Assembly (NCBI GenBank): GCA_021775425.1
Contig: JAJFHX010000025.1
Coordinates: 1-64,000, forward strand
DNA: 64,000 nucleotides
Direction: 5' to 3'
Source: Hyphomicrobiales bacterium
Lineage (GTDB): Bacteria > Pseudomonadota > Alphaproteobacteria > Rhizobiales > HXMU1428-3
The position numbers and the translations under genes are program-made. Numbering within the stretch: position 1 is the first letter of the stretch; the number at the start of each line of letters is the position of its first letter. Below the pieces are notes generated by a model. The model was not told the DNA's origin. It was given only the letters and a program-made list of their open reading frames with translations, and did not search any database. Below, one piece after another: positions 10,378-19,633 of this stretch.

Positions 10378-13300
10378 TTAATTTTTCTTCTTTATAAAAG
10401 ATTTGCTCGGTTTAAAGGTCTTTGGCTTAATGTTTTTTGGTCTGATGACCTTTTTCGGCTTTGGTTTAAAGACCTTGACCTTAGGTTTAAAGACCGGCTT
10501 TTTAGGTTTGAAAACTTTGGCTTTTTTGATGCATCTAGCACCACCATTTTTCAGACCATTGCGTTTCCAGCCTTTCGGGCAGGCGCAATACCAGCCTTTG
10601 CCACGTTTTAGCAGGCGACCATTTGAGCAGACAGGTTTTGGACGGCTGACTGGCTTTCTGGCACAGATGGCACCGCCATTTTTCAGACCTTTTCTGGTTG
10701 TGCCTTTCGGGCAGCCACAGAACCAGCCTTTGCCGCGTTTGGTCAGTTTGCCACCTTTACATACAGGTTTCGGTGTGCTGACCGGCTTTCTGGTGCAGAT
10801 GGCCCCGCCATTTTTCAGGCCTTTTCTGGTTGTGCCTTTCGGGCAGCCACAGTACCAGCCTTTGCCACGTTTGGTCAGCTTGCCGCCTTTACAAACCGGC
10901 GTTGGTGTTGAGGCTGGTGGTTTTGTGCAAATCGCACCGCCTTTTTTGCCAATCGGTTTTCTGTTCCAGCCTTTCGGGCAGGCACAGTATAAACCTTTGC
11001 CGCGTTTAATCAGTTTACCACCACGACAAGCCGGGACTACTGTTGGTTGTTTTGAACAGAAGCCTTTGTTGTTGCGGGTGTAACCATTTTTACAGACACA
11101 CTGACCTTGCGAATTGCGGAATTCATTTGGCGCCAATTTACATTGGGTTGGAATTCTCACGCAGTTACCGCGTTTTGTGCGGCTGAAGCCAGGTTTGCAA
11201 ACACAGCGACCGTTCTGGTCTTTGATTTCATTGCGACCAGGTTTGCAGCCTCTTGGTGGCTTCACACAGATGCCACTGTTGTTACGATCAAAGCCAGGCT
11301 TACAGACACAGCGACCAGCGCGGTTTTTGTATTCGTTGGCTCGTGGTTTGCAGCCCTCTTTTGGCGGTACGCAGCGGTCTGGTCCGCGGCGGATAAAGCC
11401 GGGGATGCAGATACAGCGGTTGTCACTGGTGCGGATTTCGCCGCGGCCAGGGATGCAACGTGGATCGTCGCCTACTGGTGGGATGAAGGTTGGAGGGCCA
11501 TCATCACCAACGCAACGACGTCCGTTCCATTCTGTGCCGGCAGGGCAGACACAGACACCTTTATTGTTCATCACCAATGGTGGTTTACATTGGGGTTCTC
11601 TCTCATCATCGAGATTAAACTCATGACAACCAACAATCGCATTACCGCCATTTGCGCCATTATCAGCTTTTTCAAGTGATTTTGTTTTGCCTGGGAATAA
11701 GCCCGGGTCAACAATGGCTGCACAGTTTCTCAAGGCGTCTTCTTTCGTCAACTCTGAATTCTCAGGGAAGACGACGGTGACTTTGTGAGACTGGCTTTCA
11801 CCAGCTGCGAGGTTCAGGTTGCCTTCACAGTTGAATGGCAGAGAGGCTGGCTGAACCGCACAAGGTAATGGTGGGCTGATCGATGTGATCGGCACATTCA
11901 TACCAGCGGCAGCAAGGCCGAGTGCATCAACAAATTTAACGTTGCCGCTAAAGTCTGTTTCACCGTTGTTTTTAAAGGTGAGGTCAAATGTGCAGTCTTC
12001 ACCTTTTTGGCAGATGGCATCACCAGTTTTTTCAACTCTGATATCAACGCCGCCTTCAACACAGCTTTTGCCGATGATTGTGCGACCGTCTTCAGAATTG
12101 TTTGGTTCATGATGACCGGTTGCGCAGTTTCTAAAGCGCTCATTTGTGTTGCCGCTTAATCTGATTTTCGTATCAAAAAAGCGGGTAATGCCAGGTGTTA
12201 GATGCTGACCATCAATAGCGCAGACCAGATCTGGCGCCGGATCACCGGCACAAGACCATTCTGGTCCATCTGGGGTGACGTTTTCTGATGTCAGTGGGGC
12301 TTCTGTTCCAAGGACACGTGCCACGTCATAGATGCGGATGATGCCTCTTGGAGCTCTATCACCATTATTTCGAACGGTGATGCGGCATGAAATGAGGCTA
12401 CCAAGCACACCAGGTTGACAGGACTTATCAATTGAGAGGTCAGTTTTGTCACCAGGAACCGGACCATCGTCTTCAGGTTCGCCAGGGAGTTCACCTTTTG
12501 CACAATCCTGATCTTTACCTTCGGCTCCTTCTTCAAGTTTGACACAGTTTTCGACTGTTTTTTCGTCAACTTTCGATGGGTCAAGGTATTTTGCCTTGAC
12601 GGTCAGAATGGTCTGGCCATTGGCTGGCAGATTAATGCCCGGGTGGGTACAATCAAATTTTATACCGTCCACTGTGGCACAGTTCCACGGGGGCATCGGA
12701 TTGAAAGTTACCAGGTCTGGTTTTTCTGCGTTGAACTTATCTTCAACATGGAGAGGGCCATTATAGGCTGCATCACCTGTGTTATGGATGATGACTGAGA
12801 AGTTCACCCAGCATGTTGCTACGCCCTGGATTCCACCAATACATTGTGTGCCGGTTGAGAATTTTTTGATTTCAAGTTCAGGCTTTTTCTCAACTTCTTC
12901 ATCAGGGCAGTCATTGCTGCCTTTGATGCAGATTTCTGCGCAATCCTTATCATTGGTGAGGTCGCCAAAGGGGGCAACGCCCATTTTGTTATAATTTAGC
13001 TTAGCGCAGTTTTTGATTTTGTCTGAAGGCCAGGCATTACCGGGGGTAAAGCCGAGTTTCAGGTCTTTAAACTCACCCGGGTTCAAAGTTAATGCCGGAT
13101 GGGTGCAATCATAAAGGCCAAGGGCGTTGTTATACGTACAGTTCCAGTTAAGGTTCGGGCCATTGGTGATAGCGGCTCTGTGGGGGATCTGCCATTCACG
13201 AAGGGCGAGTTTGCCAGTGTATTTTTTATCACCAACATTTTTCACGCGGATGCGGAAGTTACAAGGGCCGGTTGCCTTGTCGCATTCTTCCATCAAAGCG

Positions 13301-14439
13301 CGTTTCTTAACCTCTAAATCGGGTTCTTTTTCTTCTTCATCACAGGGGATGTCTTCAGGAATTTCTATGATGATTTCTTCCGTGCAACATGTGGCGATGC
13401 CATCAAAATCTGCCGGGCCAACTTGTTTGACGTTGTTGGTCAGAAGATGGATTGTCATGCCTTTAGCGGCACCGATGAGATCCCATTCAAGGATGCCGCC
13501 ACCGGGTGGGACAACCTGAAATGCGGGGTTCACAACTACGCCCGGTGTCAGTGAGGTGAGTTCAATGGTCGTACCAGCGAGGGCTGGGCTAACCGGCATT
13601 TTGTATTTAAACGGTGCGATGGCGTCGCCTTTACATTGAACTTCGCCTTTTTCAAATTTGATGCAAGGTTCGCCGTGAGGGTCACCGCCACCATCTTCTG
13701 GTTTGTCACAATCTGTGAGGTCGACTTCGAATTTTGTTGGTGTGCCCTCAAACCAGTCTGCAGGGTCGGGCAGGGCCGGGTTATGGGATTTAGCGACAAG
13801 ATTACCAATAAATGTGTGTATGGTAAGTTTTGCCTGGTTACTTTTAACTTTAGGGTTGGGAAATTCAGCCGGATCAATCTTAGCTGTTAAAATTGTGATG
13901 ATTGACCGTGTGTTCGCACCGCCCTGACCGTCTTTATCTTCCTTGCTTAATTTAAAGCCAGTTACTTTTACGGTGTCATTTGGATGGTTAGTTGTTGAAT
14001 AAGACAATACGCCCAACTGGCCAACATCGCCTTGCATTGAGGCGTTGACCCAGGAAAGACCTTTTGGAAGTTTGTCAAATAGGTCAAGCTTTGATGCCAG
14101 TATGAATTTAGGCAAATCAGGATGTTCCCAAAATCCGTCCGTTGCTTCAACTGATAATTTGATGCGAAAACGCACAAATTTACAGCGTAATTGCTGGGCT
14201 GATTTTGTGTAGCTGTGTTTTATTACATGGGGTGGTTCCGGGTCAGGGCCATTGCCACCGACCTGAAAGTCACCAGCATTCTGGTTATTTTTCTGAGCCT
14301 GATTTGAAAGCCATGGATTGTTCTGAGCGTTATTTTGCTGTGCCATAGCTTGTGTTGCGCTACCCAGAGAGAGGCAGAAGCCAAAGGTGAGGGCAGCTAT
14401 CCACTTACTGGTGGATTTTATGTGTGTGAGCGTTTTCAT
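10378..14439 (-). CDS. Large exported multi-module protein: Ig-like (DUF11-like) domains, Cys-rich tandem repeats, Lys/Pro tail
   Basis: About 1353 residues from the ATG at 14439, preceded by GGAGA; in-frame starts up to 14505 exist but place the signal peptide too far inside. A Sec signal ends near AMA-QQNN. An Asn/Gln-rich linker leads to a N-terminal region, a module shared with the neighbouring 674-residue protein, then four repeats of about 140 residues beginning PDLEVKK, PELEIKK, TDLSIDK and VDIRVEK. These have the NxGD and paired-Cys pattern of DUF11-type Ig-like domains. Next come about five Cys-rich units of about 35 residues (CxCKPGF), then four near-identical 44-residue Cys-rich units (GGKLTKRGKGWYCGCPKG), and a very basic FKPK-rich end. 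No membrane anchor or sorting motif is visible. Second gene of a divergent operon; the function is unknown, with a surface, matrix or adhesin role inferred. Confidence 0.85.
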   Translation of the reverse strand: MKTLTHIKSTSKWIAALTFGFCLSLGSATQAMAQQNNAQNNPWLSNQAQKNNQNAGDFQVGGNGPDPEPPHVIKHSYTKSAQQLRCKFVRFRIKLSVEATDGFWEHPDLPKFILASKLDLFDKLPKGLSWVNASMQGDVGQLGVLSYSTTNHPNDTVKVTGFKLSKEDKDGQGGANTRSIITILTAKIDPAEFPNPKVKSNQAKLTIHTFIGNLVAKSHNPALPDPADWFEGTPTKFEVDLTDCDKPEDGGGDPHGEPCIKFEKGEVQCKGDAIAPFKYKMPVSPALAGTTIELTSLTPGVVVNPAFQVVPPGGGILEWDLIGAAKGMTIHLLTNNVKQVGPADFDGIATCCTEEIIIEIPEDIPCDEEEKEPDLEVKKRALMEECDKATGPCNFRIRVKNVGDKKYTGKLALREWQIPHRAAITNGPNLNWNCTYNNALGLYDCTHPALTLNPGEFKDLKLGFTPGNAWPSDKIKNCAKLNYNKMGVAPFGDLTNDKDCAEICIKGSNDCPDEEVEKKPELEIKKFSTGTQCIGGIQGVATCWVNFSVIIHNTGDAAYNGPLHVEDKFNAEKPDLVTFNPMPPWNCATVDGIKFDCTHPGINLPANGQTILTVKAKYLDPSKVDEKTVENCVKLEEGAEGKDQDCAKGELPGEPEDDGPVPGDKTDLSIDKSCQPGVLGSLISCRITVRNNGDRAPRGIIRIYDVARVLGTEAPLTSENVTPDGPEWSCAGDPAPDLVCAIDGQHLTPGITRFFDTKIRLSGNTNERFRNCATGHHEPNNSEDGRTIIGKSCVEGGVDIRVEKTGDAICQKGEDCTFDLTFKNNGETDFSGNVKFVDALGLAAAGMNVPITSISPPLPCAVQPASLPFNCEGNLNLAAGESQSHKVTVVFPENSELTKEDALRNCAAIVDPGLFPGKTKSLEKADNGANGGNAIVGCHEFNLDDEREPQCKPPLVMNNKGVCVCPAGTEWNGRRCVGDDGPPTFIPPVGDDPRCIPGRGEIRTSDNRCICIPGFIRRGPDRCVPPKEGCKPRANEYKNRAGRCVCKPGFDRNNSGICVKPPRGCKPGRNEIKDQNGRCVCKPGFSRTKRGNCVRIPTQCKLAPNEFRNSQGQCVCKNGYTRNNKGFCSKQPTVVPACRGGKLIKRGKGLYCACPKGWNRKPIGKKGGAICTKPPASTPTPVCKGGKLTKRGKGWYCGCPKGTTRKGLKNGGAICTRKPVSTPKPVCKGGKLTKRGKGWFCGCPKGTTRKGLKNGGAICARKPVSRPKPVCSNGRLLKRGKGWYCACPKGWKRNGLKNGGARCIKKAKVFKPKKPVFKPKVKVFKPKPKKVIRPKNIKPKTFKPSKSFIKKKN
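10530..11045 (-). repeat. Four tandem in-frame repeats of 132-135 bp (44-45 residue Cys-rich units)
   Basis: The phrase CCAGCCTTTG (plus strand) and its variant recur at 10591, 10723, 10855 and 10990, spacings of 132, 132 and 135 bases, each inside a unit encoding CKGGKLTKRGKGWYCGCPKG and about 24 more residues. The two central units are nearly identical in DNA, suggesting recent duplication or gene conversion. Unit number is likely to vary between strains. Confidence 0.9.
11050..11600 (-). repeat. Degenerate tandem repeats of about 105 bp (35-residue Cys-rich units)
   Basis: About five coding units of the pattern C-x3-NE-x5-G-x-C-x-CKPGF-x6-G-x-C, about 35 residues each, immediately N-terminal to the 44-residue units of the large exported protein. 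Spacing of the Cys-x-Cys pair is regular; DNA identity is lower than in the neighbouring 132-bp repeats. They resemble small EGF-like or trypsin-inhibitor-like Cys knots without matching a family that I can name. Confidence 0.75.
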
Positions 14440-14516
14440 GTCTTTCTCCATGACCTTTAAAGGGGGTTCTCTATATCTGTCGGCTGAGGGGGATAAAAAG
14501 TTCATTTCAGCCTCCC

Positions 14517-16541
14517 TTATGGTGCACAGGCAAATGGAGGGGCTTTCAGAGGTAACACTGCTTTACAGCAGGGGAACTCTCCGCCAGCGTCTGCATCTGC
14601 TTTGTTATAGAGACAAACTCCAAGGTCATAATTCTCGTTTGGCAGAATGCCCAACACATCAAGCGTGTATGGCGCAGCGCCAGGGACGGTCTGCATTTTT
14701 GGAGTGACGTGAATGCCGGGTGTGAAGGATTTTGCCTTCAGGCTATCTGCTCCAAGGCCAGCATTTTCCTTTAAGTAAAGGTCCATCTGGACTTCACCGG
14801 CAATACTGCATGAATAGTCAATGGCTTTGACTTCGACGCAGCGCTCTTTACCACCGGGCGGAATATCATCGCCGGGGTAATCTTCCGGGATTGGTAAATC
14901 CCAGGGATAGGGGTAATAATCATTATAGCCGCTCTGACCTTCGCAGGGGCGATAAACCTCTGTGTCACCAACATGACCTTTGACTTCAGGGTCATCAAAT
15001 GTACCATCATAATCAATGTAATAGCTGTTCCATGGCGGGATGTTGGCCGGGCGGGTCAGGCTTTTGTCTGTGAGCTGGATGCCATGGACGTTTAATGCAC
15101 CGCCGGGGCTTAATTGATCAATTAAATCCGGGTTGTATCTGAGGTTATCACCGGTTTTAACAAGGGTTACATCGCAAGCGCCAAAATTAATGGTGCCGTC
15201 CTGATTGTAGCCATATTGGAGATCAATGCCGCCAACGGCCAGTTTATGATCAGCTTCCATGCCAACGGCATAGCTGGCTGGGGTTTCAACCCAGCGACTG
15301 GGCGTTGCCGGGTCATCCGGGCTTTCCGGGTGGTAGCGCAGCACATTATTAACTGCGGTTTCTGCGAAACTTGCGTAATCATAAGGGTTTTTCAGTTTGC
15401 CGCGCTGGGAGAGGAACATGTGGCCTTTATTATCAAAGGCGATGTCTGTGACGGGGTGATTGTTTTCAGAGCTGACATCCAGCTCCCAGCTGGCTTCGCC
15501 AAAGCTGCCATCGTCATTAATGCCAACAGACATGATCATATGACCTTCGGCTGCGTAATAGTACAGCCGTTTACCTCTAACCTGCAGGCCATAGACAAGT
15601 CGCTCTAATTTTGCAAAGCCCCATGTTTCTGGTTTATCAGCGATAAAAGAGGGGTCTTTGATATTCATGCGGTTGCTGGCGTCATGGGCAACTTCGGCAA
15701 GGCCTTTTGAGGCGCGACCTGCTGTGCCATGGTCAAATGTGCCCTGGGCTTCACCTTGCATGTTGAAGCCGTGTATCATGCCTGTGTCAAGATCTGAGAC
15801 AAAAAGCTGGCGGGTTCTGTGGTCAAAGGTGATGTTGCCAAGACCTGGGCCGGAGTTTTCTTCTCCGTCAAGGCTGACATTGGCGAACAGAGTGACCTCG
15901 CCGGTGATGCCATCAATCTTCCAGATGGCGCCGGGGGTGCCGCCGTTTTTGGTGCCAAACTGGCCTTCCATAAATTCGGCGTCTTCCTGGCCTTTTTTCA
16001 ATCTTTCCATACGACCGTCATCATCTGTATCCGGGCCAACGATTTGCAGGCCATGAAGCACTGATGAGGTGACATATAAATTCGGGACTTTGGGTTCACC
16101 TTCGGGGCGGTCAGCGCCGTCATCATAGGTGAGGCCGAAAACCTGGCCGATCTGGTCAGCTTTGACTTCAAATGGAGCCGGGAGATTGACGAGCTGGCCT
16201 TGAGCCGGCCCGCCCATGCTGGTGGCTTTATAGATACGAAGGCTGGCACCATCTAGTTTTATGAAGGTTTCATCCAATGGGTCAACGCCTGGGGGGATGC
16301 CGGCTTCAGGAAATTTCAGGCCGGAAAAGCCGGTGATGGCGATGTCACCCTTTTCAATGATCTGAGCGGTTGCCTCTGCCGAAGCGCCGCTTGCGCCTAA
16401 AAACAGCGAAAGGGCCAGGATGAGTGAACTGGCCGTTTGTGTGAGTGAGGCTTTTAAGGAGAAACACAATCGTCTGAACGGGAGGTTTGCATATGGGGCG
16501 TCTTTATTGAATTTTGAAAGGGGGTAACCTTGCTCTGACAT
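14517..16541 (-). CDS. Exported propeller-like protein of unknown function
   Basis: 674 residues from the ATG at 16541, which has GGGAG six bases upstream and a signal sequence ending GASGASA-EAT. An in-frame ATG at 16742, also with a GGAG site, would add 67 residues of low protein character. The body carries blade-like repeats (GAIWKIDGITGEVTLFANV, GNITFDHRTRQLFVSDLDTG, DIAFDNKGHMFLSQRGKL) typical of NHL/SMP-30-like beta-propellers, with many Asp-Gly turns. The last 110 residues are a Cys-containing module (SFTPGIHVTPKMQTVP...PCC) also present in the adjacent large protein. First gene of the operon under the minus-strand TGAACC-N16-CGAC element. Role unknown; probably periplasmic or secreted. 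Confidence 0.82.
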   Translation of the reverse strand: MSEQGYPLSKFNKDAPYANLPFRRLCFSLKASLTQTASSLILALSLFLGASGASAEATAQIIEKGDIAITGFSGLKFPEAGIPPGVDPLDETFIKLDGASLRIYKATSMGGPAQGQLVNLPAPFEVKADQIGQVFGLTYDDGADRPEGEPKVPNLYVTSSVLHGLQIVGPDTDDDGRMERLKKGQEDAEFMEGQFGTKNGGTPGAIWKIDGITGEVTLFANVSLDGEENSGPGLGNITFDHRTRQLFVSDLDTGMIHGFNMQGEAQGTFDHGTAGRASKGLAEVAHDASNRMNIKDPSFIADKPETWGFAKLERLVYGLQVRGKRLYYYAAEGHMIMSVGINDDGSFGEASWELDVSSENNHPVTDIAFDNKGHMFLSQRGKLKNPYDYASFAETAVNNVLRYHPESPDDPATPSRWVETPASYAVGMEADHKLAVGGIDLQYGYNQDGTINFGACDVTLVKTGDNLRYNPDLIDQLSPGGALNVHGIQLTDKSLTRPANIPPWNSYYIDYDGTFDDPEVKGHVGDTEVYRPCEGQSGYNDYYPYPWDLPIPEDYPGDDIPPGGKERCVEVKAIDYSCSIAGEVQMDLYLKENAGLGADSLKAKSFTPGIHVTPKMQTVPGAAPYTLDVLGILPNENYDLGVCLYNKADADAGGEFPCCKAVLPLKAPPFACAP

Positions 16542-16787
16542 AGTATTCTCCCGATATAATGTCGTTATTTCTTGTTGTTTTTGCGCCGCTCTTATGTTGG
16601 TTGTACGTTTGTGGTTTGCAGGCAAAAGGATATCAGAGTTTGCTGATATTTTCTGGTTTTTCGGGCAATCTTCTGTTCTGCATGTGTATTTGTGGGCCAG
16701 AACTGGGTAGCAGACCGCTTCAGTATGCTTTCTTTTTGTCATTGGTTCGCTCCATAAAACAAAGAATTAAATTCATATGTCTCATTG

Positions 16788-16813
16788 GTCGCCCGATTGA
16801 CGCATTTGGTTCA
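16788..16813 (-). promoter_or_regulatory. Predicted ECF-sigma promoter for the secreted-protein operon
   Basis: On the minus strand TGAACC (16813-16808) is separated by exactly 16 bases from CGAC (16791-16788), the same element and spacing found upstream of the sigma factor gene on the other strand. AAC in the -35 and CG in the -10 are general features of ECF promoters. Transcription would start near 16780, giving a leader of about 240 bases to the preferred start at 16541. Inference; not tested. Confidence 0.6.
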
Positions 16814-16891
16814 TAATAGACTGAGATTTTTAAGATTTTATCTGTTTTGAGCGGGAAATTGGTTTAAATTCAGGTAAAAATGAACTCACAA

Positions 16892-16917
16892 TGAACCATT
16901 TGGCTCTCCGCGGCGAC
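16892..16917 (+). promoter_or_regulatory. Predicted autoregulatory ECF-sigma promoter
   Basis: TGAACC (16892-16897), a 16-base spacer and CGAC (16914-16917), followed by GTA. It lies 25 bases upstream of the sigma factor ATG at 16943, so the transcript leader would be short. The match in both hexamer and spacing to the divergent element at 16788-16813 is the main evidence. A second partial TGAACT lies at 16881. Confidence 0.6.
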
Positions 16918-16942
16918 GTATGGTCAGATAAAGTGGATTGAT

Positions 16943-17527
16943 ATGGCAGTGCAAAGCTCACATGACGGATCAGGTGATCGTGATATCGACCTCATGGACC
17001 GGCTAAAGAATGGCGATGAACGCGCCATGCAGGTTTTGTATGCCCGTCATTATCAAAGGCTTTATCGGTTTATCATACGGCAAATCAGGGATGAGACGAT
17101 GGCTGAAGATATTGTAAATGAGGTGTTTCTTGATTGCTGGCGCAGTGCCGGTAAATTTGAGGGACGCTCTAGCGTGACCACCTGGCTCACGGCAATCAGT
17201 TATAACAAGTCTGTCTCCTATTTACGTAAGAAACGCGAATCTCAACTGGGTGAAGGCCAGGCGGAAGCCATGGTCGATGAGAGCGACAGCCCTCAGACCG
17301 AGTTGATGAAGGGGGACAAAGGTGAACAGCTGCGATATGGGATTTCTCAATTATCAGAAGCCCATGCAGCGGTGATTGATCTGGCTTATTATCATGAGAT
17401 GTCTGTCAGTGAGATTGCTGAAGTTCTTGATGTTCCTGCTAACACTGTTAAGACCCGTCTGTTTCATGCGCGAAAGAATCTTCATGAGATTTTGTGTGAA
17501 GCCGGGGTGGATAGAGGATGGCCATGA
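16943..17527 (+). CDS. ECF-type RNA polymerase sigma factor
   Basis: 194 residues with the two domains of group IV sigma factors only: region 2 (HYQRLYRFIIRQIRDETMAE and DIVNEVFLDCWRSAGKF, with RSSVTTWLTAISYNKSVSYL) and region 4 helix-turn-helix (YYHEMSVSEIAEVLDVPANTVKTRL read in two parts around residues 148-172). It recognises the promoters of a specific regulon once released from its anti-sigma factor. Weak ribosome site (AAGTGG). Its stop overlaps the next gene's ATG as ATGA, implying translational coupling. Subgroup within the ECF classification not assigned. Confidence 0.95.
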   Translation: MAVQSSHDGSGDRDIDLMDRLKNGDERAMQVLYARHYQRLYRFIIRQIRDETMAEDIVNEVFLDCWRSAGKFEGRSSVTTWLTAISYNKSVSYLRKKRESQLGEGQAEAMVDESDSPQTELMKGDKGEQLRYGISQLSEAHAAVIDLAYYHEMSVSEIAEVLDVPANTVKTRLFHARKNLHEILCEAGVDRGWP

Positions 17528-18207
17528 GCAATATTGAAACACATACACATGAAGAGCTTATCGGATTATTGCCATTTTATCTTTCAGGTAAAATTGAGGA
17601 AGATGATAAGCGGGCCGTGATGGAATGGCTCGAACGGGACCCTGATGCGGCGTTCATTCTGGAAAAGGTTGAGGCTGAACGGCAAGCCAGCATTGAAGTG
17701 AATGAGGCAGTTAAGGCGCCGCATGACGGGTTGGCCCGGCTTATGAAAGATGTTGCAGCAACGCGCCAGAATGTGCCGCTTTCTGTGAAGGGTGGGTCTT
17801 TGCTGGCTTCGTTGAAAGACAGGATCCTGTCACCTTTACAGGCGGCTCCCTCTGAACTTGCCTGGGGGTTGTGCGGCTTGCTGATGCTGGTGACGATTGG
17901 TCAATCAACGCTTCTCTATAATGGGAATGCGGGTACCACGCCGCCCGGCTTTGAGCTGGCGTCTGGTGAGAAACACACGATTCTTGCAAGTGGTATTGTT
18001 AAATTTTCTGAAACGGTTCAGATGGAAGCGGTGACTGAACTGCTTGATGAGGCCGGGGTGATTATCATAGATGGGCCAACGGCCAGCGGGCAATATGTGA
18101 TTGGTTTTATTGAACGCGATGGACTGCCAGAATTATCAGAGCGCCAGAAGCATTTTAAGGCGCGCAGTGATGTGGTGACATTGTTTGTTGTTAAAGGGGG
18201 CAAGTGA
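17524..18207 (+). CDS. Membrane-anchored anti-sigma-like protein
   Basis: 227 residues from the ATG at 17524, which has GAGG upstream and overlaps the sigma stop; an ATG at 17518 is also possible. The N-terminal 60 residues (HEELIGLLPFYLSGKIEEDD, then a short helical region) look like the sigma-binding helical domain of anti-sigma factors but lack the zinc HxxxCxxC. One membrane segment follows (about residues 113-136, GLCGLLMLVTIGQSTLLY), leaving about 90 residues in the periplasm. Position directly after the sigma gene is the strongest reason for the call. The periplasmic domain is unrecognised. Confidence 0.82.
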   Translation: MSNIETHTHEELIGLLPFYLSGKIEEDDKRAVMEWLERDPDAAFILEKVEAERQASIEVNEAVKAPHDGLARLMKDVAATRQNVPLSVKGGSLLASLKDRILSPLQAAPSELAWGLCGLLMLVTIGQSTLLYNGNAGTTPPGFELASGEKHTILASGIVKFSETVQMEAVTELLDEAGVIIIDGPTASGQYVIGFIERDGLPELSERQKHFKARSDVVTLFVVKGGK

Positions 18208-18211
18208 TCTG

Positions 18212-19633
18212 ATGGCGGTATTACAGACGATTTTCAGATTTGCGGCTGCTCTGGTTTGTTTGTTTGCGTTATTGAATTTGTCTTCTGTTCAAAATGGTGT
18301 GCTTTCTGGAGCTTTGCTGATTAACTCTGCTCAAGCGGCAACATGCGGTGTTGTGGGGGATGTTGTTGACCAGCTTCCCGCTGAAATCGCAGAAGTGCTT
18401 GGTGATGGTGGACCTGATGCTTCATCAGATAAGGGGCAGTGTATCACGCCGCCAAAAGCAACTGATGTGTCTGATGAAAAACCAATAAACGCACCATTGG
18501 TAAAAACTTATCAATCAGCCAATGCGATTGTTGGTGCGCATGTGCCTGATGAGGTGCTGGTGACTGTCAGCGCGGATGAAGGGGTTGTTGAACGTCTGCG
18601 CACTACATACGGATTAACCGTTCGCTCGCAAAAAGTGATCACATTGCTGGGCAGTGTACTGGTTCGCTTTGGCATTCCTGACGGGCGGCCGGTGGCGGTT
18701 GTTCGGGCGCAATTGCTTGGGGCCCCCGGTGTGCTTCAGGCTGAGCCTAACCATATTTACCAGTTAAATGGCAAAGCAGACAATGGCAAAGCAGGCAGTG
18801 CGTTGAAACGCTATTCGATGGTGGCGGCTGAAATTAACAGTGCGCAAAAACAGGCGCTCGGGCGGGGAGTGAAAATAGCCATTATTGATACGGGGGTTGA
18901 TGAAAACCACCCTGCTTTAACCGGTGCGGTGCGGGGGCGGTTTAATGCGCTTGAAAATACACCTTTAAACATAACGGACCATGGCACGGCTGTTGCCCTG
19001 CTGGCTGGGGGCGGTGACAAAAGTTTCATGGGTGCGGCGCCTGAATCTGAGCTTTATGTGGCGCGTGCTTTTGATAAGACGAAAAATGGTGTTTCTGTGA
19101 ATGCGGCGGACGCGATCATTGCCAGCCTTGACTGGGCGTTTCAGCAGGATGTTGATATTGTGAATATGAGTTTTGCCGGGCCAGAGAACAAGCTGATCAC
19201 CAAGTCTATTCAGAATTTGCTGAAACTGAATGTGATATTAGTGGCGGCTGCCGGGAATAATGGATCGAAAGCCCCGTTTGCTTATCCGGCTGCGACGAAA
19301 GGTGTTTTTGCCGTCACAGCCACAGATGCGAAAAACAGGGTTTATTCCAAAGCCAATCAGGGGCCTTATGTTTATGTTTCAGCGCCGGGGGTGGATTTAA
19401 TCATCACGGATGGTGCTGAGAGCGTGCAACTTCGAAGCGGGACATCTTATGGTGCGGCGCTGTTTTCCGGTATTTGCGCCTTAGCGATGGAGGGGCGCAA
19501 AGGCATGCCGCTCAAAAATTTACGAAATATATTAGAGCGCAGCACAAGAGACCTTGGGCCACCGGGGAGAGACCCGACTTTCGGGATTGGACTTATTCGC
19601 GCTGCCGAGCTGTTACGCCAAGTGGCGAAATAA
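18212..19633 (+). CDS. Exported subtilisin-like serine protease (S8 family)
   Basis: 473 residues from the ATG at 18212, four bases after the anti-sigma stop; an upstream TTG at 18185 is less likely. A signal sequence ends near NSAQA-AT. Residues about 100-185 form an inhibitor-I9-like propeptide region (VPDEVLVTVSADEGVVERLR...GVLQAEPNHIYQLN). The catalytic domain has the triad: Asp in AIIDTGVDENHP, His in NITDHGTAVALLAGGG, Ser in RSGTSYGAALFSGICALA, and the oxyanion Asn in AAAGNNGSKAP. The usual GTSMAAP reads GTSYGAA. Third gene of the sigma operon; may cleave the anti-sigma periplasmic domain or process the divergent secreted proteins (inference). Confidence 0.93.
   Translation: MAVLQTIFRFAAALVCLFALLNLSSVQNGVLSGALLINSAQAATCGVVGDVVDQLPAEIAEVLGDGGPDASSDKGQCITPPKATDVSDEKPINAPLVKTYQSANAIVGAHVPDEVLVTVSADEGVVERLRTTYGLTVRSQKVITLLGSVLVRFGIPDGRPVAVVRAQLLGAPGVLQAEPNHIYQLNGKADNGKAGSALKRYSMVAAEINSAQKQALGRGVKIAIIDTGVDENHPALTGAVRGRFNALENTPLNITDHGTAVALLAGGGDKSFMGAAPESELYVARAFDKTKNGVSVNAADAIIASLDWAFQQDVDIVNMSFAGPENKLITKSIQNLLKLNVILVAAAGNNGSKAPFAYPAATKGVFAVTATDAKNRVYSKANQGPYVYVSAPGVDLIITDGAESVQLRSGTSYGAALFSGICALAMEGRKGMPLKNLRNILERSTRDLGPPGRDPTFGIGLIRAAELLRQVAK

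Follow-up and report, generated by a model that had tools for sequence, protein, structure and literature searches.

Organisation of the locus

The locus described here occupies positions 10378 to 19633 of a stretch of 64,000 nucleotides from a Hyphomicrobiales bacterium (contig JAJFHX010000025.1, assembly GCA_021775425.1), and this whole stretch is called the window. A plus-strand operon encodes an extracytoplasmic function (ECF) sigma factor, a membrane anti-sigma factor and an exported subtilase of peptidase family S8. It is divergent from a minus-strand pair of genes for two exported proteins. The sigma factor very likely drives both transcription units, and the sensor domain of the anti-sigma factor is probably homologous to a subtilase prodomain. 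All of the five open reading frames (ORFs) proposed in a first-pass annotation were found where it had placed them. The genes and the predicted promoters are as follows.

16943..17527, plus strand: ECF sigma factor gene; sigma70 regions 2 and 4, NCBIfam PRK12515 subfamily above cut-off
17518..18207, plus strand: single-pass membrane anti-sigma gene; start at 17518 or at 17524 (ATGA overlap with the sigma gene)
18212..19633, plus strand: exported S8 subtilase gene; signal peptide, prodomain and catalytic domain with the D/H/S triad
14517..16742, minus strand: exported propeller protein gene, with a C-terminal Cys-containing beta domain
10378..14505, minus strand: large exported Cys-rich protein gene; DUF7929, DUF11-like repeats, Cys-rich C-terminal repeats and a basic tail
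16892..16920, plus strand: predicted ECF promoter of the sigma operon, TGAACC-N16-CGACGTA, kept 5' of sigma orthologues
16785..16813, minus strand: predicted ECF promoter of the propeller/DUF7929 pair, TGAACC-N16-CGACCAA

The host genome is 3.19 Mb in size, and its nearest named relatives are metagenome-assembled genomes labelled Hyphomicrobiales, Hyphomicrobiaceae, Methyloligella or Rhodomicrobium. An Rfam scan of the window gave no match. The sigma factor is 194 amino acids long and matches Pfam sigma regions 2 and 4 above cut-off, which is the make-up that defines the ECF type (regions 2 and 4 only, about 200 amino acids). Two further traits of ECF sigma factors, a co-encoded anti-sigma factor in an overlapping gene and a GAAC-type autoregulatory promoter, are present as well, the promoter being predicted. 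The S8 gene starts either at a TTG at 18185 or at the ATG at 18212, which leaves a 4-base gap after the anti-sigma gene, and ends at 19633. Its product matches Peptidase_S8 (E 1.8e-36), has subtilisin relatives in the PDB and contains the motifs IDTGVD, DHGTA, AAGNNG and GTSYGA, which account for the catalytic Asp, His and Ser and for the oxyanion Asn. It is thus predicted to be a complete subtilisin-like enzyme with a signal peptide, a prodomain and the catalytic motifs.

A promoter element shared by the sigma operon and the secreted pair

The first-pass annotation had noticed a promoter-like element common to the two operons. This was borne out: TGAACC-N16-CGAC occurs twice with the same spacing, and each copy points into its own operon. 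The sharing is not due to chance, because the element was found again 5' of sigma and propeller genes in other genera, where the spacers have diverged. The element lies 5' of the sigma gene in the window and in most orthologues that have upstream sequence. Among relatives, TGAACC-N16-CG(A/T)C precedes sigma genes as well as propeller genes, whether these are linked or unlinked.

In order to relate the element to the presence of the sigma factor, sigma-positive and sigma-negative genomes were tallied by hand, and those with too little upstream sequence were excluded. Of 18 sigma-positive genomes, 15 had the motif at the propeller gene, and none of 13 sigma-negative ones did; with the incomplete genome G023 included, the latter count becomes 1 of 14. 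The Fisher p value was between 3e-6 and 4e-5, uncorrected for relatedness. In the same tally, the propeller homologues lacking the motif were on average more distant, and more distant propeller proteins, without the motif, do exist in genomes that lack this sigma factor. Three sigma-positive genomes (G089, G044 and G021) count against the control of the pair by the sigma factor, since their propeller genes have no motif. In a separate collection of 80 named loci, mostly from Mesorhizobium, the motif stands 5' of the propeller gene in 73, with variable spacers. The other seven comprise two loci without upstream sequence and five from Nitratireductor with a slightly diverged site. Since the element is conserved even when the genes are unlinked, the comparative genomics supports the proposal of the first-pass annotation that the sigma factor turns on its own operon and the secreted proteins, which is very likely on these predicted promoters. 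At two loci of the home genus (L198 and L199, genomes G001 and G005), a further TGAACC-N16-CGAC site belonging to the large Cys-rich gene lies in the interval that separates this gene from the propeller gene.

The conserved module

A survey of 101 relatives found the propeller homologue in 37 genomes, the protease, whose family is broad, in 51, the sigma factor (E<=1e-25) in 25, the anti-sigma factor in 24 and DUF7929 in 13. The sigma, anti-sigma and S8 genes travel together as a conserved module. Module and pair are divergently arranged in the home genus, in Nitratireductor, at the loci L237 and L280 and also in G052 and G059, where the propeller is part of a fusion. Mesorhizobium and others carry the pair away from the module. 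Most genomes keep the pair apart from the operon, which rules out the five genes as a single unit. Therefore, the idea of a single five-gene system was abandoned: only sigma, anti-sigma and S8 make up the conserved module, and the pair is one target of many. Secreted-protein homologues away from the operon had been named in the first-pass annotation as the observation that would speak against its proposal. Their existence disposes of adjacency and leaves the regulatory link unrefuted, because the operon sits elsewhere in the same genome. Where the pair is unlinked, the anti-sigma factor was found in every one of the 27 genomes searched; in a class sample, it was found in 20 of 337. An arrangement intermediate between linked and unlinked occurs in Mesorhizobium camelthorni (L243:2863-4411), where about 2.5 kb separate the module from the pair.

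The anti-sigma sensor resembles a subtilase prodomain

The domains of the anti-sigma factor and the prodomain of the adjacent subtilase are located as follows.

17539..17703, plus strand: anti-sigma N-terminal domain, residues 8-62; fold matching the MucA cytoplasmic domain and RsiW
17854..17922, plus strand: predicted transmembrane helix, anti-sigma residues 113-135; low model confidence
17965..18204, plus strand: periplasmic beta-alpha-beta-beta-alpha-beta domain, anti-sigma residues 150-229; subtilase-prodomain-like, without a PN-x-x-Y tail
18533..18751, plus strand: subtilase prodomain, ending EPNHIY; Fervidolysin_NPro-like, E=0.0023, below the curated cut-off

No curated family matched the anti-sigma factor at cut-off, and its orthologues gave weak zf-HC2 matches. 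The zinc-ligand motif H-x3-C-x2-C is not present in its sequence; this motif is not common to all class I anti-sigma factors. Structural comparison of the cytoplasmic part gave moderate Z scores, which were 7.1 for residues 8-62 against MucA (root-mean-square deviation, rmsd, 2.5; 55 aligned residues) and 6.6 for residues 10-81 against RsiW.

The ectodomain was modelled by AlphaFold2 as a beta-alpha-beta-beta-alpha-beta fold with a predicted local distance difference test (pLDDT) score of 86-94. In Foldseek, the subtilisin BPN' prosegment ranked first (probability 1.00), and other subtilase prodomains and the subtilisin inhibitor POIA1 were among the top matches. Alignment with VIA-align against subtilase prodomains and POIA1 gave Z scores of 6.0-6.7, with 6.7 for both POIA1 and the Tk-subtilisin propeptide. 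The comparison of profiles gave support independent of the fold. With hhalign, 41 ectodomains aligned with the prodomains of 42 adjacent S8 proteins in register over 63 columns, with a probability of 80.1 and an E-value of 1.4e-5. An earlier comparison with 19-25 sequences had reached a probability of 22.7, which was only suggestive. As controls, 100 column shuffles never exceeded a probability of 2.8, and reversal gave 0.5. In addition, one anti-sigma orthologue matches the Pfam prodomain family of the window's S8 protein (E 0.0048). In a class-wide search, the anti-sigma matches that cover the ectodomain have an S8 gene within 1.5 kb, with L330 as the sole exception; matches to the cytoplasmic domain alone mostly have no S8 gene nearby.

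Several points weigh against this reading or against the sensing of the protease that is built on it. The Foldseek E-value is 0.015. NapD and Lrp-type domains score Z 5.7-6.6 (NapD 6.6) and are thus tied with the prodomains; the ferredoxin-like fold is common, and the fold alone is no proof of homology. The hhalign E-value stands for a single comparison, and its controls were shuffles and reversal, not other ferredoxin-like families. The best PF22148 match, in one orthologue, reached 17.7 bits and lies below the curated cut-off of 21, as does the own Pfam match of the window's S8 prodomain with respect to its cut-off. PF22148 did not match the anti-sigma factor of the window, and a search of PDB sequences with the anti-sigma profile found RsiW weakly (E 0.19) and no prodomain. 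Most S8 prodomains end in (E/Q)PN(H/Y/F)xY, and the anti-sigma ectodomains have no such tail, which could mean weak or no binding. In genome G018 (L081:1540-2915), the S8 gene beside the sigma and anti-sigma genes is split into two overlapping ORFs, possibly by a frameshift or an assembly error; the system may therefore sometimes work without an intact protease. On balance, we consider homology between the ectodomain and the subtilase prodomain probable.

The secreted pair

The two exported proteins contain the following domains.

14934..16358, minus strand: six-bladed beta-propeller of the YWTD/NHL/SMP-30 kind; matches nidogen and LRP6 propellers, Z about 25, rmsd 2.5, about 256 aligned residues
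13714..14211, minus strand: DUF7929 domain; Lys-Asp-Asn set K101, D144 and N223, as expected for an intramolecular isopeptide bond

The pair had been described as two large secreted Cys-rich proteins. This holds for the larger one, which is Cys-rich overall with 70 cysteines; the smaller one carries most of its cysteines in the C-terminal domain. In the model of the smaller protein (pLDDT 84), a Cys-containing beta domain comes after a six-bladed beta-propeller, and no curated family matched the protein at cut-off. It has 674 residues when read from 16541 (14517-16541, minus strand) and 741 when read from the ATG at 16742, up to which the frame is open. The open stretch (16541-16742, minus strand) reaches well 5' of the signal peptide. 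In Mesorhizobium (L246, L267, L274, L292 and L296), the stretch 5' of the propeller signal peptide reads as similar protein between species. The sequences suggest a long N-terminal extension of about 70-100 residues ahead of the export signal. In G065 (L010 / L039), the propeller gene is split into two ORFs by one internal TAG. Distant propeller homologues of many relatives (L044-L071) are fused to long C-terminal extensions, with a total of about 800-1600 residues, and they are present in genomes both with and without this sigma factor.

The large protein has 1353 residues (10378-14439) or 1375 residues (10378-14505), depending on the start chosen. It matches DUF7929 with 119.6 bits (cut-off 27) and DUF11 with 30.9 bits (cut-off 24.6) in Pfam. 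Judged by sequence, the Lys-Asp-Asn triad is also present in three of its DUF11-like repeats. DUF7929 and DUF11 are reported to be intramolecular isopeptide-bond domains typical of fibrillar adhesins, and the Lys-Asp spacing of 43 in DUF7929 matches the table of that work (PMC12617251). A domain-family scan recognised no surface anchor domain in the protein. The best reading of the predicted domains is a surface protein stabilised by disulfide and isopeptide bonds, and an adhesive role may be supposed.

A predicted wider regulon

Motif sites were counted genome-wide by pattern searches, with the reversed motif as a control. The home genome has 14 sites against 2 for the control, and four members of the genus have 12-16 sites each against 1-3. 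Across families, the median density was 2.7 per Mb in sigma-positive and 0.67 per Mb in sigma-negative genomes (p=4e-7), with equal reversed controls; the enrichment is thus restricted to sigma-bearing genomes. Among ORFs starting 40-125 bp 3' of a motif, a hydrophobic N-terminus was found in 53 of 69; among window genes, the figure was 11 of 34. The count is approximate, since the starts were picked by a simple score. An ScsC/DsbA-type oxidoreductase and a small MHILL membrane protein are motif targets in all of the five genus members tested. Families of small secreted Cys-containing proteins are also among the targets, in other families of bacteria as well. Targets seen only in the home genome include an L,D-transpeptidase, an SPFH protein and two more exported Cys-containing proteins with basic tails. 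By prediction, the motif targets are a regulon of secreted and envelope proteins. That the sigma factor controls both the pair and this wider regulon is predicted with high confidence.

Proposed mechanism and alternatives

The first-pass annotation had offered two roles for the protease, degrading the anti-sigma sensor or processing the secreted pair. Action on the sensor is favoured, because the sensor domain resembles the prodomain of that protease. In the proposed mechanism, the mature subtilase would recognise and dock on the prodomain-like domain of the anti-sigma factor as on its own prodomain. The docked protease would stay active and cleave the anti-sigma factor, acting as a site-1 protease. 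Cleavage is the first choice because the ectodomain has no tail of the kind that occupies the active site in a prodomain, so that the active site is left open. The sigma factor would then be released and would switch on its own operon and the secreted proteins stabilised by disulfide or isopeptide bonds. For a direct action of the protease on the anti-sigma factor, we see the chances as evenly balanced. The whole chain, an autoregulated ECF regulon with a captured-prodomain sensor, docking, cleavage of the anti-sigma factor and release of the sigma factor, might equally well hold or fail.

The main alternative keeps the docking and changes its consequence. The ectodomain would be a tethered inhibitor or chaperone of the mature subtilase in place of a substrate, and the occupancy of the protease by secreted substrates would set the amount of free enzyme and shift the state of the anti-sigma factor, with negative instead of positive feedback. 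The docking evidence (Foldseek, Z scores and hhalign) serves it as well as the cleavage model, POIA1 is a stand-alone subtilisin inhibitor with this fold that ties for the best ectodomain Z score, and sigma-driven expression of S8 would complete a feedback loop. However, the ectodomains do not end in PN-x-x-Y like the S8 prodomains, and their final residues are variable in sequence as well as in length; product-like inhibition is therefore disfavoured, and we regard this alternative as unlikely. It is also conceivable, if somewhat unlikely, that S8 is merely a sigma-regulated processing enzyme, that the anti-sigma factor responds to a different, unrelated cue (envelope or redox), and that the likeness to a prodomain reflects the common ferredoxin-like fold. 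S8 and its likely substrates do belong to the same regulon, the tied Z scores of NapD and Lrp domains fit, and the DsbA/ScsC-like regulon member hints at a redox theme. On the other hand, the ectodomain and a neighbouring S8 protein co-occur almost without exception, and the profile match to the prodomain of the adjacent S8 far exceeds the shuffled and reversed controls. Finally, the unlinking of pair and operon in many genomes might mean that the divergent genes are functionally unrelated neighbours with a coincidental element. This is highly improbable, given the strong co-occurrence and an element kept 5' of both in unlinked genomes and at 73 of 80 named loci.

Relation to known systems

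Like RseA/DegS, MucA/AlgW, RsiW/PrsW and RsiP/signal peptidase, the module combines an ECF sigma factor with a single-pass anti-sigma factor that has a MucA/RsiW-like cytoplasmic domain and an extracytoplasmic sensor, together with a candidate extracytoplasmic protease. In contrast to those proteolysis-released systems, the candidate protease is a subtilase of the same operon, whose prodomain the sensor resembles. The ectodomain shares its fold with the subtilisin BPN' prosegment, the Tk-subtilisin propeptide and POIA1, as well as profile similarity with the adjacent S8 prodomain. Unlike them, it is fused to a transmembrane anti-sigma factor and lacks the C-terminal tail. In Streptomyces, sigma BldN and its anti-sigma factor RsbN reportedly control chaplins and rodlins, which would be a similar case of an ECF sigma factor and a membrane anti-sigma factor devoted to secreted surface proteins. 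The target proteins differ, however, and we know of no subtilase or prodomain-like sensor there. Like fibrillar adhesins (PMC12617251), the large protein combines DUF7929 and DUF11 with Lys-Asp-Asn in one exported chain; unlike them, it is paired with a propeller, strongly Cys-rich, without a recognised surface anchor and preceded by a predicted ECF promoter.

A literature search, with the main ECF reclassification outside its reach, found no paper on this operon or on such a combination. A Bradyrhizobium ECF paper was discarded, since it had matched only because 'DUF1109' contains 'DUF11'. The sigma group, with S8 neighbours noted, may already be numbered in the ECF classification. The parts are of known kinds; for their combination, in which an anti-sigma sensor resembles the prodomain of the protease from the same operon and the regulon consists of stabilised secreted proteins, the papers searched gave no precedent.

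To our knowledge, it has been established for only a minority of ECF groups what their extracytoplasmic anti-sigma factors sense. In the present module, neighbouring genes encode the sensor and its likely partner, the two look related in sequence, and the signal therefore becomes a concrete, testable contact between two proteins. We tentatively propose, at rather less than even confidence, a distinct class of anti-sigma factors that senses the protease of its own operon through a captured prodomain. The cell would read the unoccupied mature subtilase in the periplasm and so couple the load of secreted proteins and surface remodelling to transcription. The regulon also gives a context that can guide functional work on many uncharacterised genes in Mesorhizobium, Nitratireductor, Aminobacter and marine Hyphomicrobiales. 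For marine and soil relatives of rhizobia, the overall result suggests that cells time the remodelling of their surface by sensing the protease that they themselves secrete.

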